From assembly GCF_004123675.1 (NCBI RefSeq), contig NZ_CP035417.1, positions 267,501-331,500 of the forward strand: 64,000 nucleotides of DNA, in the 5' to 3' direction. The notes beneath the pieces are model-generated. The model saw nothing but the letters and a program-made list of their open reading frames with translations, was not told the DNA's origin and ran no database searches. The stretch comes from Leisingera sp. NJS204 (lineage in GTDB: Bacteria; Pseudomonadota; Alphaproteobacteria; Rhodobacterales; Rhodobacteraceae). Within the stretch, counting starts at the first letter, position 1, and each line of letters starts with the position of its first letter. Shown one piece after another: positions 46,780 to 55,992 of the stretch. The position numbers were made by a program, and so were the translations under genes.

Positions 46780-48138
46780 GTGCCTCACGACACATCTTCT
46801 GTTGACCCGGCTCTCGCCTGTGAACTGCCCTGCGGCTTCAAACTGCTGCAAGGCCAGTACCAGATCGAGCAGCCGCTGCTCAGCGGTGGCTTTGGGATCA
46901 CCTATCTGGCCCGCGACAGCCTGGAACGCCGCGTTGTCATCAAGGAGTGCTTTCCGGCAGGCATTTGCCGCCGCAGTGGCACGGATGTCGAACCCAACAC
47001 GGAAGAGCACGCCAAATCCTGTCGCAATGTCTTGCGCAATTTTCTGCGCGAGGCGCATCTGCTGGCCCGCGCCCGGCATTCCGGCATCGTTGGCGTGCAT
47101 CAGGTGTTCAAGGAAAATCAAACCGCCTATATCGCGATGGAATTCGTCGACGGTTTGGACTTGCTGACCGTGCGGGAGGACCAGCCTGAACGGCTGACCG
47201 GGCCGCTTCTGCGGCACATTCTTTGCCAGGCACTGGAAGCGCTCGACTGCCTGCACAGGCAAGGGATTTTGCACCGCGACATCTCGCCGGACAACTTCAT
47301 CCTTGGAAAGGATGGGAGCCTCACGCTGATCGATTTCGGGGCCGCCTGCGGCACTCTTCCCAATGATGATACCGCGCTGCCGGTGCTGCTCGCGGTCAAG
47401 GATGGGTATTCCGCGCATGAGCTGTACAAGCCCGAGTTGCCTCAACGCCCGGCCTGTGACCTCTATGCGCTGGGTGCCACGCTGTACTACCTGATTACCG
47501 GTAACGTGCCCGCAAGCAGCCAGCAGCGGCTGAGCGCAGTAATGGCAGGTGACCCGGACCCGTGCAAACCGCTGCTGGGCAGACCGTGGAACGCGGATCC
47601 TGCGGTGCTTGCCACCGTGGATATGGCGATGTCCGTGCTTCCGGCTGAACGGTTCCAATCGGCGCATGACTGGGCGGGCGCGCTGGCCGAAAACGGCTGC
47701 GAAACACAGAACGCTGCGGAAACAGACGCTCAACTGCCCGGCACGGTTGCGCCAGCGCCAGAAGACAATGCCAATCTGGACGCCGTCATCGCCGAGCTGG
47801 TCGCGACGGCCAATGGCGGCCTGACACCTGGGCAACCGCGCTCGGCCAGGCAGCAGCAGACCGCACCTGCCAGCAAACCCTCAAAGCCGCTTCGCCAGCT
47901 GGTGAATATCTTCGGCGAGCCGGTCAGCGACGTGGAAGCCTGGCTGGAGGAACAGGACGCAATCCCCCGGCGGAAGAAAAACGCTCCCGCCGTGGAACGG
48001 CTGCCCGCCGCCGTACCTGCTGCGGACCTCCCGGCAGATCCGGTTCTGGAACTGCGCCAGGAAAAGCCCGGTTTCGCGGGCCGGCTGCGAAAAATCTTCG
48101 GGCGCCAGCGCAGCACCCCGGAAACGGTTAAGAACTGA
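46780..48138 (+). CDS. Soluble Ser/Thr protein kinase
   Basis: 452 residues. Kinase domain at about 25-300: glycine loop LLSGGFGITYLARD, Lys55 in VVIKECFP, catalytic loop HRDISPDN (Asp167, Asn172) and DFG (185-187), all needed for activity. The KECFP and HRDISPDN forms place it in a bacterial group distinct from PknB. The C-terminal 150 residues are low-complexity with a short conserved-looking patch (PLRQLVNIFGEPVSDVEAWLE); no membrane helix or PASTA repeat. Start: the GTG at 46780 has AAGGA 9 bases upstream. First gene of an eight-gene operon that also encodes an FHA reader and a PP2C phosphatase. Confidence 0.87.
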   Translation: MPHDTSSVDPALACELPCGFKLLQGQYQIEQPLLSGGFGITYLARDSLERRVVIKECFPAGICRRSGTDVEPNTEEHAKSCRNVLRNFLREAHLLARARHSGIVGVHQVFKENQTAYIAMEFVDGLDLLTVREDQPERLTGPLLRHILCQALEALDCLHRQGILHRDISPDNFILGKDGSLTLIDFGAACGTLPNDDTALPVLLAVKDGYSAHELYKPELPQRPACDLYALGATLYYLITGNVPASSQQRLSAVMAGDPDPCKPLLGRPWNADPAVLATVDMAMSVLPAERFQSAHDWAGALAENGCETQNAAETDAQLPGTVAPAPEDNANLDAVIAELVATANGGLTPGQPRSARQQQTAPASKPSKPLRQLVNIFGEPVSDVEAWLEEQDAIPRRKKNAPAVERLPAAVPAADLPADPVLELRQEKPGFAGRLRKIFGRQRSTPETVKN

Positions 48139-48149
48139 AGGGAATGGGT

Positions 48150-49499
48150 ATGAAATTCATCAAGGATATCATCGGCGAAAAGCGGGAGAGGGTCCGCCTG
48201 GACGGTCATGCCGCACCAGAAGCAGACCCGGCCCAGGCGCCTGTGCAGGATGCGGTTGCTCCTGACGTCGCCAGTACCGGGGCTGCCCGTCCGCCTCTCA
48301 GCCTCGACCGTGGTTTCCTGCTGGATGCAGTGCCGGAAACAGCTCAGGCGGCATCCCCCGTGGAGACTGCTGCTCCGCTGGCTGGCAAGCCCGCGGATGA
48401 CGGCTGGACTTATGACGCAGGGCCTGATGACGCGTTGGCAGAAGGCGAAGGTTTGCCAGGCTTTGCTGAAGAGCAGCCCCAGGACCCGGCCATTGCGGCC
48501 TTTTTCGCCCGCGAGCAGGAAACCGTGGCAGTGCCAGCGGTCAGTGCTGACCCTAGGGATGCCGGAACCCTTGGCAGCCTCGCAGGCGCCGCATCAGATG
48601 ATCCCTTCGCAGCTGGCGCCGAAGCGCCTGCGCGCGTTGGCATTGAGGATAGTTTCCGCAGCCCGGAACTGGCTGAACCAGCAGCCGAAAGCAGCGAATC
48701 CTACAGGGTCTTCAAGCGAACCCAGGCCGGCGTACAGGAGCAAGGCAGCGCGCCAGAAGTTGAGGAGACTCCTTCTGCAGCCTTCGCCCCAGTACATCAG
48801 CCTCAGCAGCAGCCGGAAATCAGCCCGCGCGGCGTCGAAGCACAGCCTGCCAGTATCCTGGCAGGCACCCCTCAACCGGCTGCCCCTGCTCCGCAGGCGG
48901 CTCCTGTTGCCGCCCCGCAACCGGCGCCGGCAGCTTCGCAACCCGTGGTCTCCATGGACATCCCGGCAGACGCGTCGATTGATGTGCCGGCACCGTCGAT
49001 GGGGCGCGGCGCCAGCCGGGCGGGACGGGTCAAGACCCGCCTGCTGGGTTTCAGCCCGGCTCAAACCGAAGACAGCGATCCCTTTGCCCGCAGCCAGAAA
49101 GACATTGCGCCCGGTTACACCCGTTTCCCCGTCGGCTGGCTTGCCATCGTGCAGGGGCCGGGCCGCGGTGCTGCTTTTACATTGTTCAGCGGCGTCACTG
49201 TGATCGGCCGCGGTGCCGACCAGACCGTTAGGCTGGACTTTGGTGACAACAGCATCTCGCGCGACAACCACGCTGCCATCGCCTATGACCCGGAACAGAA
49301 GGCTTTCTATATCGGCCACGGCGGCAAGGCGAATCTGGTGCGCCGCAACAACCGCCCTGTGCTCAGCACTGAAACCCTTGCAGCGGGTGATGTGATCCGC
49401 ATTGGTGAAACCACCCTGCGCTTCGTGCCGCTGTGCGGCGCCGATTTCGGCTGGGACCAGCCGCAACCCAGCGATACCGACCATGCTGTGCACCGCTGA
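48150..49499 (+). CDS. FHA-domain protein
   Basis: 449 residues. Residues 1-320 are Ala/Pro/Glu-rich and probably disordered, apart from a basic start (MKFIKDIIGEKRERVRL). The FHA domain is C-terminal: LAIVQGPGRGAAFTLFSGVTVIGRGADQTVRLDFGDNSISRDNHAAIAYD as a region of about residues 330-380, with the GR, S and H residues that contact phosphothreonine, up to IRIGETTLRFVPL. It should bind a protein phosphorylated by the upstream kinase. The tail overlaps the phosphatase gene by 17 bases. ATG at 48150 is preferred to the one at 48144 because of spacing from GAAGGGA. Confidence 0.86.
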   Translation: MKFIKDIIGEKRERVRLDGHAAPEADPAQAPVQDAVAPDVASTGAARPPLSLDRGFLLDAVPETAQAASPVETAAPLAGKPADDGWTYDAGPDDALAEGEGLPGFAEEQPQDPAIAAFFAREQETVAVPAVSADPRDAGTLGSLAGAASDDPFAAGAEAPARVGIEDSFRSPELAEPAAESSESYRVFKRTQAGVQEQGSAPEVEETPSAAFAPVHQPQQQPEISPRGVEAQPASILAGTPQPAAPAPQAAPVAAPQPAPAASQPVVSMDIPADASIDVPAPSMGRGASRAGRVKTRLLGFSPAQTEDSDPFARSQKDIAPGYTRFPVGWLAIVQGPGRGAAFTLFSGVTVIGRGADQTVRLDFGDNSISRDNHAAIAYDPEQKAFYIGHGGKANLVRRNNRPVLSTETLAAGDVIRIGETTLRFVPLCGADFGWDQPQPSDTDHAVHR

Positions 49500-50466
49500 G
49501 TTCGAATATGATGCCGCGACGGCCATCAGCAAGGGCCGCCGCGAGCGCCAGGAGGACGCGCTTGCCGCCGATTTCCTGGCCGGTACCGGCACTGGTTTTG
49601 CGGTGCTGGCCGATGGCATGGGCGGCCATGCCGCCGGAGATGTCGCCAGCAAAATCGTGGTCACCGAAGTGTTCAGCGATCTGAAGCTGCGCGCGGACGA
49701 CCCGGGTGCGTTGGAACAGTCGATCGGCGCAGTGCTGCAGCAGGCTGCCAGCGGTGCAAATGCCTGCCTTGGCGAATACGCCAGCCATCAGCCTCAGGCC
49801 CGGGGAATGGGCGCGACGCTGCTGGCTCCGGTGCTGTTCAGCGACCGGCTTTACTGGATCTCGGTTGGTGACTCGCCGCTTTACCTGTTCCGCGACGGTG
49901 CGCTGATCCGGCTCAACGCCGATCACTCGATGGCAGCAGAGATCGACAGGCTGGCCGCCCAGGGCCGCATGGACCCGGCCGAGGCCGCCAGCCACCCGGA
50001 CCGGCATTGCGTTACCTCAGTGCTGACGGGGGCGGAAATCCCCCGCATCGACTGCCGCAGCACACCTGTCCGGCTGCAGCATGGCGATATAGTTCTGGCC
50101 GCCAGCGACGGGCTGCAATTCCTGGAGGAGGACGAGATCGCCGCCGTCCTCGCTGCAGAATGCGGCAGCTCCAGCGCCCGTATCGGTGCGGCGCTGATGC
50201 GGCAGCTGGAGGTGCTGAATGCCCCGGAACAGGACAATGCCGCGTTCTGCGTGATCAAACCGATTGACCCGCAGGCCGCTCTTCCTGCCCAGGCACAGCC
50301 ATCAGCGCTGCCGATGGACGCGCCGGTTCTGGACCCGCCGCCGCCCGAACAGCCGCCCGCGCCGCCGCGTCAGCGCAGCGGCCGCCGGGTGATCACCCTC
50401 CTGGCTTCGGCGACGTGGGATTCAGCACCCGCCGCCCGCCGCAATAAGACGGATGCATCGGCTTGA
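49483..50466 (+). CDS. PP2C-family Ser/Thr phosphatase
   Basis: 327 residues. PP2C metal-binding motifs: ERQEDA (in place of the usual NEDA-type), VLADGMGGHAAGDVAS (Asp44), GMGATLLAPVLF, YWISVGDSPLYLFRDGALIRLNADHS, AASDGLQFL and the final DNAAF aspartate. All metal ligands seem present, so it should be active and reverse the kinase. The last 60 residues are proline-rich and of unknown use. It overlaps the FHA gene in front and the GTPase gene behind (TTGA). Confidence 0.9.
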   Translation: MLCTAEFEYDAATAISKGRRERQEDALAADFLAGTGTGFAVLADGMGGHAAGDVASKIVVTEVFSDLKLRADDPGALEQSIGAVLQQAASGANACLGEYASHQPQARGMGATLLAPVLFSDRLYWISVGDSPLYLFRDGALIRLNADHSMAAEIDRLAAQGRMDPAEAASHPDRHCVTSVLTGAEIPRIDCRSTPVRLQHGDIVLAASDGLQFLEEDEIAAVLAAECGSSSARIGAALMRQLEVLNAPEQDNAAFCVIKPIDPQAALPAQAQPSALPMDAPVLDPPPPEQPPAPPRQRSGRRVITLLASATWDSAPAARRNKTDASA

Positions 50467-51656
50467 GCCTTCCTCAGACAGATATCAGCCCGCTGGCAGG
50501 CCAGCTGGAGCACACGCTCAGCGCAGGGCAGCTGCCGGCAGAGTTTTCAGGCTGGGGCAGCCAGTTGCTGCGCCGGCTGCGCCAGCCGGTGCAGATCATT
50601 GTCACCGGCGTCACCGGTTCGGGCAAGTCGGCGCTGATTGATATGCTGTTGGGGCGTGTGGTCATTGGCCGCAATGCGGGCAGCGCGGTCATTGACATTT
50701 GCTATGGCGATCAGGAATGCGCGGTTTTTGAAACCGTCAAGGGCGAGCGCCTGCAGCAGGCGGGTGTTCTGGCTGATCTTGACATACCGGCAGGCACGCT
50801 GCGGATCCGCCAGTTTCTGCCGGACCCGCGGCTGCGCACCCACAGCTATACGGAACTGCCGCTTGCAGGCCCGCAGATCCGCCAGCAGAACCTGCTGCAG
50901 CAGGCCTCTGGCGCGGCGGATATTATCCTGTGGTGCAGCCAGGCGTTTCCGGACACAGAACAGGCCCTGTGGGCTGAAATTCCTGACAGCACCAAGGATC
51001 ACAGCTTCCTGGTGCTGACAATGGCCGACCAGCAGATCATGCGGGGAACCTTGGATGGGTTGATCATGACGGTGGAACCGGTTGCCGCTGAGGAGTTCCT
51101 GGGCGTTTATCCGGTTGCCGCGATCCAGGGGCTGACAGCCCGGACAGCAGCCGCACCGGCACATGATCTTTGGCGCTCCAGCGGTGGCAAGCAACTGGCG
51201 GATGGCGTGATGTGGCAGGTTGAAACGGGGCGTGCCTCGGACGTGGATCAGGCCGAATTGCTGATCCGCCAGTTTGGCGGTGAAACAGCCGGCCCTGTCG
51301 GCCTGCAGTCCGCAATTCCTGCTGCGGCCCCGCCGCTGACCGCTGCCGCCGGCCTCAGCAGCGCATTGGACCAGATGCAAGCCTGCGCAGAGGAAATGCT
51401 GGCCGAGGCCGAAGCCGCAGGCGGCCCGCAGGCCGGCCCGGTGCTGGCGCAATGCATGGAGATGATCCGAGGCTTGTCGCAGACATTGGCGGCAATGCCA
51501 GGCAGCACAGCCGTTGAGGCAGCCCGCGAAGCAGCGCAGGACGGGGAGGAAATGCTGATGCTCTGCCAGCTGGAGCAGGACGAAGACGCGGCCATCGACG
51601 CGGTGACGCTGCTGATTCAGCTGAAAAAGGAGCTGATCGAAGACACCACTGAATGA
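50463..51656 (+). CDS. P-loop GTPase, first of three in the operon
   Basis: 397 residues. G1 loop GVTGSGKSAL (49-58), a long beta-stranded segment, WCSQAFPDTEQALW, and LVLTMADQQ at the position of the G4 motif (normally TKxD), so nucleotide specificity is uncertain. The second half is helical and acidic (ALDQMQACAEEMLAEAEAAGG, EEMLMLCQLEQDEDAAIDA) without a known domain. Resembles Era/YfjP-like GTPases in the first 220 residues. Start is a TTG that overlaps the phosphatase stop. Lies 85 bases before the dynamin-like gene. Confidence 0.78.
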   Translation: MSLPQTDISPLAGQLEHTLSAGQLPAEFSGWGSQLLRRLRQPVQIIVTGVTGSGKSALIDMLLGRVVIGRNAGSAVIDICYGDQECAVFETVKGERLQQAGVLADLDIPAGTLRIRQFLPDPRLRTHSYTELPLAGPQIRQQNLLQQASGAADIILWCSQAFPDTEQALWAEIPDSTKDHSFLVLTMADQQIMRGTLDGLIMTVEPVAAEEFLGVYPVAAIQGLTARTAAAPAHDLWRSSGGKQLADGVMWQVETGRASDVDQAELLIRQFGGETAGPVGLQSAIPAAAPPLTAAAGLSSALDQMQACAEEMLAEAEAAGGPQAGPVLAQCMEMIRGLSQTLAAMPGSTAVEAAREAAQDGEEMLMLCQLEQDEDAAIDAVTLLIQLKKELIEDTTE

Positions 51657-51741
51657 TGACCAGCCGCACCTCCTTTCCCGCCGCCTCGCGGCCCGGCAGG
51701 GCAGAGACACACGCCAAAGCAAGACACAACAAGGTTCAGCC

Positions 51742-53787
51742 ATGAACATGGAAGCTCAGATCGAGAGTGCCACCGACATCCACGCCTCCGCGCGTCCGAC
51801 CAATCTGAATGCGGGGCTGGAACCGCTCTTGGAATTCGCCCGCAAAGCGCAGCGGATTGAAACCGCCCTGTCTGCTTTGTCCGCAGTTTCGGGGATGCGC
51901 GTCCAGCGCAGCCTGTCGCGGCTGCTGTCGGAGCTCAGCACCTTTGAACCCAGTGTCACGCTGCTGGGACAGGTGAAGTCGGGCAAGACATCCCTGGTCA
52001 ATGCGATGGCGGGCTGGGCTGACCTGCTGCCGTCGGACGTGAATCCCTGGACCTCGGTTGTCACCTCCTTGCATCTGACACCGGGGGATGCCCGGATTGA
52101 GAACAAGGCCTGTTTCCAGTTCATGACCGAGGATGAATGGGACCGGCTGCTGACCAAGGGCGGGCGCATCGGTGAAATGGCGGGCCGTGCCGGCGCCAGC
52201 AGCGAGCTGCAAAAAATCCGTACCCAGATAGAAGAGATGCGGGAACGATCGCGCCAGCGGCTGGGCCGTAAATTCGAACTGCTGATGGGGCAGAAACACG
52301 AATACGGCTATTTCGATAAGAACCTGATCGAACGCTACATCTGCCTGGGCGACGACTTTGACGAGGAGGAGGGCGGCGCCGGCGAACAGGGGCGCTTTGC
52401 CGATATCACCCGCGCGGCCGACCTGTACCTGAATTGCCTAAGCGTGCCCCACCGCCTGTGCCTGCGTGACACGCCTGGCGTCAACGACACCTTCATGATG
52501 CGCGAGCAGATCACCATCCAGGCAATCCGCGACAGCCGCCTTTGCGTGGTGGTGCTGTCGGCAGGCCAGGCGCTGACTTCGGTCGACATGGGGCTGATCC
52601 GGATGATCTCCAACCTCAAGTCCCGCGAGGTGGTGATCTTCGTCAACCGCATCGACGAACTCGCCGACCCCGCCGCTCAGATCCCCGAGATCGAGGCCAG
52701 CATCCGCCAGACGTTGGACACTCATCACGGGCCCGAGGACGCAACCGTCCTTTTCGGCAGCGCCTATTGGGCTAACAAGGTGCTGACCGGCGGGCTGGAG
52801 GACATGGACAAGGCAAGTTCCGCTGCGCTGCTCCATTGGGCCGAAGCTTCGGTCAACAGTTCCCATGCGGATCTGTCGGCCCAGAACATGGTTTGGGAGC
52901 TGTCCGGGCTGCCTGCGCTGAACCGGGTGGTGGCTGAGCGGATCGTGACCGACCTTGGCACGCCGCTGCTGACCCGCGTTGCCGGCTCTGCCGTTACCGC
53001 CGCCACCGGCCAGCAGGCGGCAGATGCGGTCAGAGTGCAGGGCGAGGGCGGCGCGCAGGCCGGTCTTCACGACACCAGCGCCGCGTTTGAGAATATCTGC
53101 AAATCCCATCTGGACGCACTGGAGGCCGAGACCGCGCAAATCCTCGACGGATTCCGCGACCGCGCCGACCGGGCTCATGCCACCTTTACAGACCGCGCCA
53201 CCCACGCGCTGATCGAACACCTGGAGAAATGGGGCGAGGACTGCCACTGGGAATATGATCCCGCCGGGCTGCGGATGCTGTTGCGTTCTGCTTATTCAGT
53301 GATGACCAGCCGCCTGCAGGCTGCCGCCCAGGCCCGGTACAAGGCCGCGGTGCAGGACATTGCGGAACTGCTCTATGACGGTTTCGGCGCTGCGGTCGAG
53401 GGTATTCAGCTGTCAGTTCCCGAGGTGCCCCCGGCCAGCTCTCCGATTGCGCTGGGGCAGGCCATCGCACTGGATTTCAATGACAGCTGGTGGGCCGCCT
53501 GGTGGCGCCGCACCCGCGGCTACCAGGCATTTGCCAAACGTTTCCGCAGCCTGATCGCGGGCGAGACCGAAGATTTCATGACCCAGCTTAAATTCGTGCA
53601 GACAGCAAATGCGGGCGCTGCTGTCCTTGCCCGGCTGCAGGGCTTTTTCGACGACCAGCGCGACATCCTGATGGAAATCGCGGACCACAGCCGCCGCGGC
53701 GGTGATGTTCAAGGGCTGATCGCCAATGACAGCCGCCGGACACAGGCCGACGACGCCTTGCAAACGCTCAGGAGCTTCACCGAATGA
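51742..53787 (+). CDS. Large dynamin-like GTPase
   Basis: 681 residues. GTPase motifs: G1 LLGQVKSGKTSL (about 74-85), G3 LRDTPGVND (DTPG 243-246), G4 NRIDE (302-306). A long insertion with a coiled coil (SSELQKIRTQIEEMRERSRQR, about 153-173) separates G1 from G3. The C-terminal half is mostly helical, and at 583-588 it carries a tryptophan cluster, SWWAAWWRRTRGYQAF, that could dip into a membrane, as the paddle tips of bacterial dynamins do. No transmembrane helix is obvious. Overlaps the next GTPase gene by 4 bases. Bacterial dynamins often work in pairs, and a second one follows directly. Confidence 0.87.
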   Translation: MNMEAQIESATDIHASARPTNLNAGLEPLLEFARKAQRIETALSALSAVSGMRVQRSLSRLLSELSTFEPSVTLLGQVKSGKTSLVNAMAGWADLLPSDVNPWTSVVTSLHLTPGDARIENKACFQFMTEDEWDRLLTKGGRIGEMAGRAGASSELQKIRTQIEEMRERSRQRLGRKFELLMGQKHEYGYFDKNLIERYICLGDDFDEEEGGAGEQGRFADITRAADLYLNCLSVPHRLCLRDTPGVNDTFMMREQITIQAIRDSRLCVVVLSAGQALTSVDMGLIRMISNLKSREVVIFVNRIDELADPAAQIPEIEASIRQTLDTHHGPEDATVLFGSAYWANKVLTGGLEDMDKASSAALLHWAEASVNSSHADLSAQNMVWELSGLPALNRVVAERIVTDLGTPLLTRVAGSAVTAATGQQAADAVRVQGEGGAQAGLHDTSAAFENICKSHLDALEAETAQILDGFRDRADRAHATFTDRATHALIEHLEKWGEDCHWEYDPAGLRMLLRSAYSVMTSRLQAAAQARYKAAVQDIAELLYDGFGAAVEGIQLSVPEVPPASSPIALGQAIALDFNDSWWAAWWRRTRGYQAFAKRFRSLIAGETEDFMTQLKFVQTANAGAAVLARLQGFFDDQRDILMEIADHSRRGGDVQGLIANDSRRTQADDALQTLRSFTE

Positions 53788-54743
53788 CACAGGAATCCGC
53801 CATGCACACTCCCGTCTTCCCGGCTGCTGTACCACAGCGCAAGCCACGCCTGGCACTGATGGGCGAGTTCAGCGCCGGCAAAAGCACCCTGACCAACCTG
53901 CTTGTGGGGCGTCAGCCGCTGCCCACCCGCGTGACCGCCACCCGGTTGCCGCCGGTCTGGATATCGCACGGACCCGAGGCGGCCAGCATCACCGGCATCG
54001 ATGGCGGCGAAACTCCGCTGCTGCTCGGCGACCTCGCCAATGTGCCGATGGACACCACTGCGCTGATCCGCCTGACCCTCCCGGCAGAGGCGTTGGAGCT
54101 GTGCGATCTTATTGATATGCCGGGCATTTCGGACCCCAACATGCCGTCCAGTGTCTGGCAAAACCTGCTGCCCGAGGTAGACGGCATTATCTGGTGCACC
54201 CATGCCACCCAGGCCTGGCGTCAGTCCGAAGCCGCCGTGTGGGAGGAGATTTCACACCGCTTTGAAGGCCCGAGTACATTGCTGATCACGCATTTCGACA
54301 AGCTGCGAAACAGCCGTGATCAGGACCGTGTGGTCCGGCGTGTCAGGAAGGAAACCGGCGATGCCTTCGGCGCAATCTTTCCGCTGTCGCTAAGCCAAGC
54401 GCTGGCCGCGGGCGAGGATATGGAAGTTTGGAAGACCAGCGGCGCTGACAGTTTCATTGAATTTCTGGTGGATATGCTGGTGACTTGGGCACAGCCAAAC
54501 CGCGTTGCGCCTGCACAATCCAACCCTGCGGCTTCTGCAGCAAATCCGCAAACGGAGCAGCCTTTAGGGGCTGACGTGCTGGATTTTGGCGGCAGACGCG
54601 AGAGCGGTGAACAGCCGCAATTGCAAGAAAGCCCTGCCTGCGCGGAAGCCGGCGACCGTGTGACACCGCGCCGGGTCACCCCGGTCAAGCGCAGCAAGCG
54701 GCCGGCCCGGTCCCGGCCCGAAACCCATCCTACTGGTGAATAG
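53784..54743 (+). CDS. Smaller dynamin-like GTPase
   Basis: 319 residues. G1 GEFSAGKSTL (27-36) with the dynamin-style Ser-Ala-Gly-Lys, a threonine in TRVTATRLP for G2, G3 DMPGISD (111-117) and a G4-like THFDK (169-173). The last 80 residues are basic and low in complexity (RRVTPVKRSKRPARSRP), fit for binding acidic lipids or nucleic acid. Unlike its larger neighbour it lacks a helical assembly domain, so the two may form a hetero-oligomer. Coupled by ATGA. Confidence 0.85.
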   Translation: MTQESAMHTPVFPAAVPQRKPRLALMGEFSAGKSTLTNLLVGRQPLPTRVTATRLPPVWISHGPEAASITGIDGGETPLLLGDLANVPMDTTALIRLTLPAEALELCDLIDMPGISDPNMPSSVWQNLLPEVDGIIWCTHATQAWRQSEAAVWEEISHRFEGPSTLLITHFDKLRNSRDQDRVVRRVRKETGDAFGAIFPLSLSQALAAGEDMEVWKTSGADSFIEFLVDMLVTWAQPNRVAPAQSNPAASAANPQTEQPLGADVLDFGGRRESGEQPQLQESPACAEAGDRVTPRRVTPVKRSKRPARSRPETHPTGE

Positions 54744-54808
54744 CACATGATACCCAAACGTCCCGCAGCAGAATGCACAGCGGCCCTTGCCGGGAACGGG
54801 AGGATTCT

Positions 54809-55198
54809 GTGACGCTTTCCCTGCAGCTTGATACGCTGCGTCAGACCGCCAAGGGCTGCCGTTTGGCCGCCTTTGGTGATCTCGGCGCCAGCATTGTCCT
54901 GCGCAGCAGCAGCGCCGCCAGCCATCCGCAGGAATATCTTGACGGCCTCTGCCAGCAGGCCCGGCTGGGGTTCTTGCTGCTTGATGCCGCTTTGGCAGCC
55001 GGAGATCCGCAATCCGCTGCGCCGGCCGATGATGTCCTGATTCTGACCCCGGGCGAAGCACGCGTTTTCATCCGCGCCGCAGATGGTTCGGGTGATGCGG
55101 TGTTGTGTGTCTGCTCCGATGCGGCAAGCGCTGGGCGGCTTGCTGCCCCGGCGCGGAGCCTGCTGGCAGCAGTGGCAGCAGTGGCCGGGGGGGCATGA
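54809..55198 (+). CDS. Small Roadblock/LC7-like protein
   Basis: 129 residues. Pattern of a Roadblock/longin-like alpha-beta fold: a helix (LQLDTLRQTAKGCRL), strand AAFGDLGASIVLRSS, helix YLDGLCQQARLGFLLLDAAL, strands DDVLILTPGEARVFIRA and DAVLCVCS, and a last helix. Similarity is to the fold, not to a named member, so this is tentative. Roadblock proteins are classic partners of small GTPases (MglB with MglA). The GTG start has GGGAGG 5 bases before it. Overlaps the last gene of the operon. Confidence 0.55.
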   Translation: MTLSLQLDTLRQTAKGCRLAAFGDLGASIVLRSSSAASHPQEYLDGLCQQARLGFLLLDAALAAGDPQSAAPADDVLILTPGEARVFIRAADGSGDAVLCVCSDAASAGRLAAPARSLLAAVAAVAGGA

Positions 55199-55992
55199 TG
55201 GCAGACGCGGCTGCTTATCTCCTGCCGCATCCGGCCGGAGCAGCCGGCGCGCTGCAGCAGGCATTGAACCGGCTGGCCGAAACACCAACCGCAATTCGTG
55301 CAGGCATGCAGCAGGCTGCTGCCGGGCAGGAACCGCTCGCCGTTGCTGTGCTGCGCGAAATCAGCGAAACCGTATTGCCCCGGGAACTGACCATCTGTGT
55401 CGGCCAGCAGCCCGCCGCGGTGCTCACCGTTGCGCAACGCAGGCTTACGGGGTTGACCCTGGGTCGCTCCGCAGGTCCCGCGGACGGGGCAGAGGATCCA
55501 GACACAGCAGCCCGGATATTTGCCGCGCGGCTGCGCACATTGGATGCCGTTGCCGATGACGCAGGCTTCACAATCAAACGCCGTCCTTGCAAGGCAACCG
55601 AAGGTGTTGGCAGCTGTACTGCCAAGATGCTGAGCGACGCCATGGGCGCAGCCGAAAGCAGCAGCCCGCTGGACCGGTTCCACGCTCGCGCTACCCCTCA
55701 GGCAGAGGCTTGGATTTCATGCGGGCGGGGTGGGAATCTGTCCGGCAGCGGTGGGCCGGAGGAGCTGCTTTGCCAGTTGGAGGCAGTGCGTACCGTCCTC
55801 GCGGCCCAGGGTGCTTGCCCCTCCACGGCCAGAATGCCTGCGTCCAAGCCGGAATGCCTGCTGCTGCCGGTCTCACCTCAGAGGCGCATCATCGTGGTCT
55901 CAGCCTGCGGCGAACAGCTGCTTTTGGCCCTGCGTGCCGGCGCGGCAGATGCGATGCTGCGTGTGTGGACGGAAATTTTTCCCGGCTCTTGA
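55195..55992 (+). CDS. Uncharacterised last protein of the kinase-GTPase operon
   Basis: 265 residues, no known family recognised. The C-terminal 110 residues (LDRFHARATPQAEAWISCGRGGNLSGSG, LEAVRTVLAAQ, PQRRIIVVSACGEQLLLALRAGAADAMLRVWTEIF) repeat the strand-helix order of the preceding Roadblock-like protein, so it may hold a second such domain. The N-terminal half has helix-strand alternation (LAVAVLREISETVLPRELTICVGQQPAAVLTVAQRRLTG as a region). No signal peptide or membrane helix. Starts inside the previous stop (ATGATG at 55195). Confidence 0.65.
   Translation: MMADAAAYLLPHPAGAAGALQQALNRLAETPTAIRAGMQQAAAGQEPLAVAVLREISETVLPRELTICVGQQPAAVLTVAQRRLTGLTLGRSAGPADGAEDPDTAARIFAARLRTLDAVADDAGFTIKRRPCKATEGVGSCTAKMLSDAMGAAESSSPLDRFHARATPQAEAWISCGRGGNLSGSGGPEELLCQLEAVRTVLAAQGACPSTARMPASKPECLLLPVSPQRRIIVVSACGEQLLLALRAGAADAMLRVWTEIFPGS

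Follow-up and report, generated by a model that had tools for sequence, protein, structure and literature searches.

In the present study, we analysed a 64,000-nucleotide stretch of the genome of Leisingera sp. NJS204 (contig NZ_CP035417.1, positions 267,501 to 331,500), hereafter called the window, whose own numbering is used below. It was observed that positions 46780-55992, about 9.2 kb, were filled by eight open reading frames (ORFs), all on the plus strand (Table 1). They encode a Ser/Thr kinase (KIN), an FHA protein (FHA), a phosphatase (PP2C), a degenerate GTPase (GTP4), a large and a small dynamin-family GTPase (DYNL and DYNS), a Roadblock-fold protein (RBL) and an unassigned protein (ORF8). 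The same eight genes were recovered by a codon-usage gene caller, which had been trained partly on five of them, so the ORFs and the gene caller agreed on the eight plus-strand genes reported in the initial annotation of this DNA. Neighbouring genes overlapped at four of the seven junctions, by 17 nucleotides (nt) at FHA/PP2C and by 4 nt each at PP2C/GTP4, DYNL/DYNS and RBL/ORF8; the five overlaps counted initially are reached only if the 5-nt gap between KIN and FHA is included. The remaining junctions had gaps of 85 nt (GTP4/DYNL) and 29 nt (DYNS/RBL). The probable GTG start of RBL was preceded by GGGAGGA, and the fold model described below used the upstream start given in the table.

Table 1. 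Genes of the operon, in window numbering (aa, amino acids).
Gene	Position	Strand	Product and features
KIN	46780-48138	+	Hanks-type Ser/Thr kinase, 452 aa
FHA	48144-49499	+	long low-complexity stretch, KTRLLGF with T298, then C-terminal FHA domain (352-421)
PP2C	49483-50466	+	Ser/Thr phosphatase, 327 aa counted from ATG 49483
GTP4	50463-51656	+	degenerate small GTPase, diverged DYNS paralogue (from sequence)
DYNL	51742-53787	+	large dynamin-like GTPase, 681 aa
DYNS	53784-54743	+	small dynamin-family GTPase, 319 aa; G domain and low-complexity tail
RBL	54773-55198	+	Roadblock-fold protein (predicted fold); 129 aa if the probable GTG start at 54809 is used
ORF8	55195-55992	+	265 aa, family not assigned

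The conservation of single residues was counted over up to 78 relatives, the number varying by protein. KIN matched Pfam Pkinase (E 3.3e-28), and its catalytic set, comprising the GGFG loop, the VIK lysine (K55), HRD and DFG, was near-invariant (59-67 relatives). FHA matched the Pfam FHA family above its cut-off (E 7.7e-07), and the domain signature G355, R356, S372 and H376 was kept at each position in 69/69 relatives. The KTRLLGF pattern, which lies N-terminal to the FHA domain, occurred once in the window genome (5,036,933 bases), and its threonine T298 was kept in all 67 of 67 relatives. PP2C matched Pfam PP2C_2 (E 7.1e-13) as well as the NCBIfam Stp1/IreP model, the latter with an E-value of 1.1e-39 that was below the model's own cut-off; D52, D71, D236 and D278 were invariant (64-67 relatives). 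With these Pfam matches and intact catalytic residues, the earlier description of an active-looking kinase, an FHA reader and a PP2C phosphatase held.

Both DYNL (E 1.5e-12) and DYNS (E 1e-10) matched Pfam Dynamin_N above its cut-off, in agreement with the large and small dynamin pair recognized initially. In DYNL, the G1 (GQxKxGKT), G3 (DTPG) and G4 (NRxDE) motifs were invariant (72-78 relatives), as was the tip motif WWxxWW at residues 583-588. The predicted fold of DYNL was that of a full dynamin with a helical neck/trunk and a tip, resembling BDLP and IniA. According to structure matches taken from the VIA-align lists, which were also the source for RBL, 544 residues of the model aligned with BDLP and 483 with IniA, that is, most of the length of DYNL; 423 residues aligned with SynDLP (root-mean-square deviation 8.7) and 393 with Cj-DLP1 (17.5), both deviations being large. 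Profile matches of DYNL were Cj-DLP1 and BDLP. In DYNS, GEFSAGKST and DxPGISDP were near-invariant (67-68 relatives). Judged by its sequence, the window DYNS is a dynamin G domain followed by a low-complexity tail, and its length probably leaves no room for a trunk; some distant relatives reached 541-631 aa.

GTP4 had no Pfam match above cut-off, and Pfam does not reveal its kinship to DYNS. In an hhalign comparison, GTP4 aligned with DYNS over 205 columns with a probability of 99.7 and a pairwise E-value of 6.2e-27, hhalign E-values being those of single pairs, uncorrected for library size. DYNL aligned with GTP4 over only 22 columns and with DYNS over only 26. The profile alignment identifies GTP4 as a diverged DYNS paralogue. 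The P-loop lysine of GTP4 was kept in 61/61 relatives, and no conserved DxxG motif was found among them. Because DxxG is not conserved, hydrolysis is doubtful, and GTP4 is probably nucleotide-binding but non-hydrolysing. Of the three GTPases named in the initial annotation, DYNL and DYNS were thus retained, and the other is better described as a degenerate paralogue.

The predicted fold of RBL was that of a Roadblock protein (helix, two strands, helix, three strands, helix), and MglB, to which the likeness was close, was among its four best fold matches. No Pfam family matched RBL at E 1, Robl_LC7 included, and RBL is therefore labelled a Roadblock-fold protein and not a Robl_LC7 member. A sequence search returned no PDB relative (best E 0.69). 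According to the model, the kinship of RBL to Roadblock/LC7 proteins is one of fold only. ORF8 had the consensus LREIxETVLPR and an invariant R82 in an alignment of 53 sequences. Nothing above cut-off was found for it in Pfam or NCBIfam; of its 64 homologues, none carried a Pfam domain and none was named with a function. The search for a PDB relative of ORF8 returned none that was convincing (best E 0.12), and its profile matched neither RBL nor LC7. Where several Roadblock-like proteins had been proposed, one, RBL, is therefore supported by its fold; for ORF8, no such evidence was obtained.

In a scan across named genomes, 268 places encoding a DYNL relative were detected; the nearest named relatives of the window genome were Leisingera species, with 80-95% identity for DYNL, and the operon is present in the laboratory strain Leisingera aquimarina DSM 24565 (L050). 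The best 80 of the 268 loci, which are the closest relatives, were fetched, and 62 of them had sufficient flank (at least 6.5 kb before and at least 3.5 kb after DYNL). All eight genes were found in the same order and on the same strand in 61 of these 62 loci; the exception (L068) was without detectable RBL only. This count used plus-strand matches only, with consecutive matches of one family collapsed, and the eight search profiles had been built from the same 80 loci. Because the 80 were the closest relatives, a wider sample of 57 loci from 54 genomes was drawn from the family list. All eight genes were present in 43 of the 57 loci, among which 38 had the standard order, two had an extra PP2C or FHA match (L213, L228) and three were rearranged (L245, L250, L253). 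DYNL was in two pieces in one standard-order locus (L226), and the DYNS/DYNL order in L245 is possibly an artefact of long open frames. The other wider-sample loci were end-cut (9), without KIN only (2; L238, L239) or without KIN, FHA and PP2C (3; L243, L246, L252). Twelve of the 57 loci repeated DNA from the first set of 80; among the 45 non-repeat loci, 33 had all eight genes, 7 were end-cut and 5 were incomplete despite room. Freely varying neighbours, the outcome that the initial annotation had set against its idea of one system, were not seen. The survival of the set through rearrangement speaks for a functional unit, and the eight genes almost certainly form one conserved unit. Distance correlations with DYNL (0.44-0.83) had no control outside the operon and were left unused.

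DYNL was patchy in its distribution. Of 295 family genomes, sampled from 294 genera, 77 had it; of 385 genomes sampled from the class, 2 had it, namely the window genome and another member of the same family. A decayed locus was also observed (L120, genome G005), in which DYNL, DYNS, RBL and ORF8 remained as fragments and KIN, FHA and PP2C were not found in 19 kb.

A second copy, about 46% identical, was present in seven genomes of the window genus. In the three of these genomes that were read (L111/L112, L113/L114 and L121/L122), this copy kept all eight genes, and its dynamin half was convergent to its phospho half. At L111:6489-14998 (with L112), a hydropathy scan indicated a longer kinase with a transmembrane (TM) segment and a C-terminal region, and two weakly substrate-binding protein (SBP)-like proteins, one with LysM above cut-off, lay between kinase and FHA. 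The TM kinase and the SBP-like/LysM neighbours of the second copy suggest envelope sensing.

Dynamin pairs, frequently in tandem, were observed in twenty divergent loci that had been picked by hand and were counted separately. Seven of the 20 carried RBL, eight carried an LC7-like protein and two a LOV-like one. One LC7-like protein compared with Pfam gave Robl_LC7 at E 0.034, below cut-off, and profile comparison of RBL with the LC7-like proteins of these sister arrays revealed no link. The LOV-like proteins are PAS proteins of about 180 aa beside dynamin pairs (L118:7850-8389, L180:4897-5442 and L194:11795-12337), with the motif NCRF(L/M)QG, which we take to be a LOV signature; light input to the dynamin pair through such a partner is possible. 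In two sister dynamin-Roadblock arrays (L185:3798-4340, L191:4231-4641), a dual-specificity-phosphatase-like gene, Pfam-checked in L191, was observed together with an ABC-like P-loop ATPase.

A DYNL tree of 99 tips was midpoint-rooted, and frames shorter than 550 aa were left out. It contained a group of 54 copies, at a node given without support value, of which 50 were accompanied by at least two of KIN, FHA and PP2C and 4 by RBL and fewer. An adjacent group of 10 contained three further phospho-linked copies, and the L180 copy beside an LC7-like gene was placed elsewhere.

The flanks of the operon differed between genera, and the ten flank representatives scanned carried signalling, metabolic and envelope genes. 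In the window, a TetR gene adjoins the operon upstream and a convergent MFS transporter gene lies downstream. Scans of the locus detected no excess over chance of promoters (2 sites versus 1.5 in shuffles, standard deviation (SD) 1.2) or of terminators (11 versus 8.5, SD 3.1). At least two genes of a histidine kinase/response regulator/LuxI-like trio, in variable order, were found near 16 of the 80 loci (L049, L051-L057, L060, L061, L063, L069, L071, L085, L101 and L108; at L056 no LuxI-like gene clustered) and near 6 of the 57 wider-sample loci (L198-L254). Because close LuxI relatives were also found in genomes without DYNL, the trio is treated as a lead only. Some operon copies were on plasmids. 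Two plasmid records, from L. aquaemixtae and L. caerulea (33 kb and 95 kb), annotate five of the eight genes (kinase, FHA, PP2C and the two dynamins) and label the other three hypothetical, and the neighbours there were an HWE histidine kinase, heme oxygenase, a mechanosensitive channel, CsbD and redoxin.

From the observed gene set and its conservation, the catalytic motifs, the predicted folds of RBL and DYNL and the kinship of GTP4 and DYNS, we infer that this operon encodes a phospho-controlled membrane-remodelling machine at the cytoplasmic face of the inner membrane, a reading to which we give about an even chance. DYNL would be the mechano-enzyme, whose GTPase domain, trunk and aromatic tip may bind lipid and deform or bridge it, and DYNS and GTP4 would be partner G domains tuning its assembly. 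The Roadblock protein MglB acts on the GTPase MglA; on this model, RBL may be an adaptor or GTPase regulator of DYNS, GTP4 or DYNL. The phosphorylation state of FHA would be set by KIN versus PP2C, T298 probably being the site of an intramolecular switch of the OdhI/GarA type. When phosphorylated, T298 would fold back onto its own FHA domain; when dephosphorylated, it would leave the FHA domain free to recruit phosphorylated partners and gate the dynamin complex. The likely purpose would be membrane maintenance under envelope or light/redox stress. The TM kinase and SBP-like/LysM neighbours of the second copy, the LC7-like or LOV-like proteins beside dynamin pairs in some sister arrays and the neighbours on the two plasmid records count in favour of this reading. 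The interactions, the direction of the switch, lipid binding and purpose are all putative. The membrane remodelling suggested in the initial annotation was strengthened by the predicted DYNL fold and is still a proposed function.

Several findings weigh against this phospho-controlled machine, which rests on sequence and predicted folds. A hydropathy scan detected no TM segment in the window KIN. The stress-type neighbours vary by genus, and the window has none, which makes them weak evidence. Two wider-sample loci with complete context (L238, L239) had no detectable KIN and kept the remaining genes. KIN, FHA and PP2C were not found in 18 of the 20 divergent loci, the exceptions being L180 and L181, and the phospho-module marks mainly one DYNL clade. 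The last two results indicated that the phospho-module is an added layer and not a requirement of the dynamin pair; judged from the tree and arrays, it was probably added once or a few times to an older dynamin unit. A wider idea of modular input, which we put forward tentatively and consider somewhat more apt to fail than to hold, is that one dynamin core is driven in one lineage by a switch of kinase, FHA protein and phosphatase, and that sister lineages pair it with an LC7-like, a LOV-like (light) or a dual-specificity-phosphatase partner; the machine would combine direct Ser/Thr-phosphorylation control, a Roadblock subunit and a pseudo-GTPase paralogue. If true, this would be the first signal-gated dynamin remodelling in bacteria as far as the searches show, with a logic like that of eukaryotic endomembrane GTPases under phospho- and Roadblock regulation.

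Other explanations of the locus were weighed against the same evidence. The eight genes may be a signalling or polarity hub, in which the GTPases and the Roadblock protein act as an MglA/MglB-like switch that positions envelope machinery without deforming membrane. The RBL fold is close to MglB, the window DYNS is probably too short for a helical trunk, and KIN, FHA and PP2C are more numerous than the mechanical parts; the trunk and invariant aromatic tip region of DYNL would, however, be superfluous in a pure switch, and we consider such a hub unlikely. A phage-defence machine of the LeoA kind, for which we take Eleos to be the name and which presumably consists of LeoA plus LeoBC proteins, would have infection trigger the kinase and the released dynamins disrupt or seal the membrane. 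This defence use, raised in the initial annotation, is decidedly unlikely. DYNL matched PADLOC LeoA weakly (E 3.7e-10) and DYNS matched LeoBC at E 0.0058; KIN matched several PADLOC defence kinase models, as is expected of most Hanks kinases. The patchy distribution, the variable flanks and the plasmid copies also fit defence. However, no PADLOC match at E 1e-5 was found among the ten window neighbours, a scan that covered the window flanks only, and DYNL had no match in 50,697 phage records. The genes of the ten flank representatives and the long conserved unit with invariant motifs also speak against defence, which is left with the weak LeoA match.

The phospho-module and the dynamin genes may also be two unrelated adjoining operons, kept together by chance or for transcription only. 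The 85-nt gap at GTP4/DYNL and the dynamin-Roadblock arrays without phospho-module would fit such a chance arrangement, but complete sets survive reordering in L245, L250, L253 and L181, the convergent halves of the second copy keep the complete set in L111/L112, L113/L114 and L121/L122, and the DYNS paralogue GTP4 shares 4 nt with PP2C; this explanation is thus very improbable. The threonine-phosphorylation pathway of the type VI secretion system (T6SS) consists of PpkA, Fha and PppA, and regulatory genes of this kind could stand beside dynamins by happenstance. The three activities are the same, and TssB was found in 20 of 21 window-genus genomes searched, the window's included, so that T6SS and DYNL co-occur in most of them. 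Nevertheless, among 49 DYNL-bearing genomes (from 50 of the 80 loci; completeness not stated, some being metagenome bins), TssB was present in 21 and not detected in 28, and genome G019 had TssB and no DYNL match. The T6SS genes of the window genome are on a different contig and include an FHA-like gene, as judged from N-terminal sequence; none of the eight operon profiles matched that locus at E 1, and the ten flank representatives contained no tss gene. The TssB survey and the separate locus refuted T6SS service as a general explanation, the T6SS role raised initially was dropped, and a chance juxtaposition of T6SS regulators is scarcely credible.

The known systems were compared using sections of four articles (PMC7016017, PMC7159879, PMC2784874 and PMC6104087), in which this operon was not described. 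Bacterial dynamins are mostly encoded in pairs within an operon (PMC6104087), and the dynamin genes stand side by side here as well. Like Cj-DLP1/2 of Campylobacter jejuni, BDLP1 of Nostoc, IniA and SynDLP, DYNL has a (predicted) dynamin fold with intact G1, G3 and G4. Unlike in those pairs, DYNL is partnered by a short G domain, DYNS, and the operon further encodes a degenerate paralogue, a Roadblock-fold protein and the kinase, FHA and phosphatase proteins; the Cj-DLP partners named in the sections of PMC6104087 covered include none of these extras. Kinase, PP2C-type phosphatase and FHA genes also stand together in the actinobacterial pknA-pknB-ppp-FHA operon, with ftsW/ftsI genes (PMC2784874). 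In the OdhI/GarA self-binding switch, the FHA domain of OdhI, an inhibitor of 2-oxoglutarate dehydrogenase, is bound by the phosphorylated N-terminus of the same protein, which keeps partners out (PMC2784874), and a threonine motif likewise precedes the FHA domain here. Unlike the actinobacterial operon, the set is joined to dynamins here, and the switch is predicted here from the invariant T298. In the GAP1-N2 conflict systems (eLife 2020), GTPase genes are linked to an active kinase and PP2C (PMC7159879), as in this operon; that theme, however, is actinobacterial and comes with vWA, and the words "dynamin" and "Roadblock" are absent from the main text of PMC7159879. RBL shares the Roadblock fold with the Mgl system, with its MglB match, whereas the GTPases here are dynamin-family and not small Ras-like MglA. 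The T6SS pathway has the same three activities, which here stand apart from T6SS genes.

The assigned parts all belong to known families and operon dynamin pairs are known, but the combination of dynamins, kinase/FHA/PP2C, Roadblock-fold protein and degenerate paralogue was not found in the open-licence literature searched and is new as far as found. In line with the initial annotation, neither that literature nor the annotations of the two Leisingera plasmid records gave a name to a system composed in this way. To our knowledge, little has been established about the activation of bacterial dynamins, and the control of GTPases by Roadblock proteins and the action of dynamins on membranes are, as far as we know, usually treated as separate subjects in bacteria. 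This operon joins the two, and with kinase, phosphatase, phospho-reader, Roadblock-fold protein and dynamins in one conserved set, phospho-control of a bacterial dynamin becomes directly testable in cultured marine bacteria, in which the set occurs.

Two further observations were made. In the T6SS locus of the window genome, a 1540-aa ORF (L258:6804-11426) starts with a second TssB-like domain, and long frames with TssB matches were found in relatives too. The base composition shifts along the window, with a G+C content of 52-61% in positions 1-30000 and of 60-65% across the operon.

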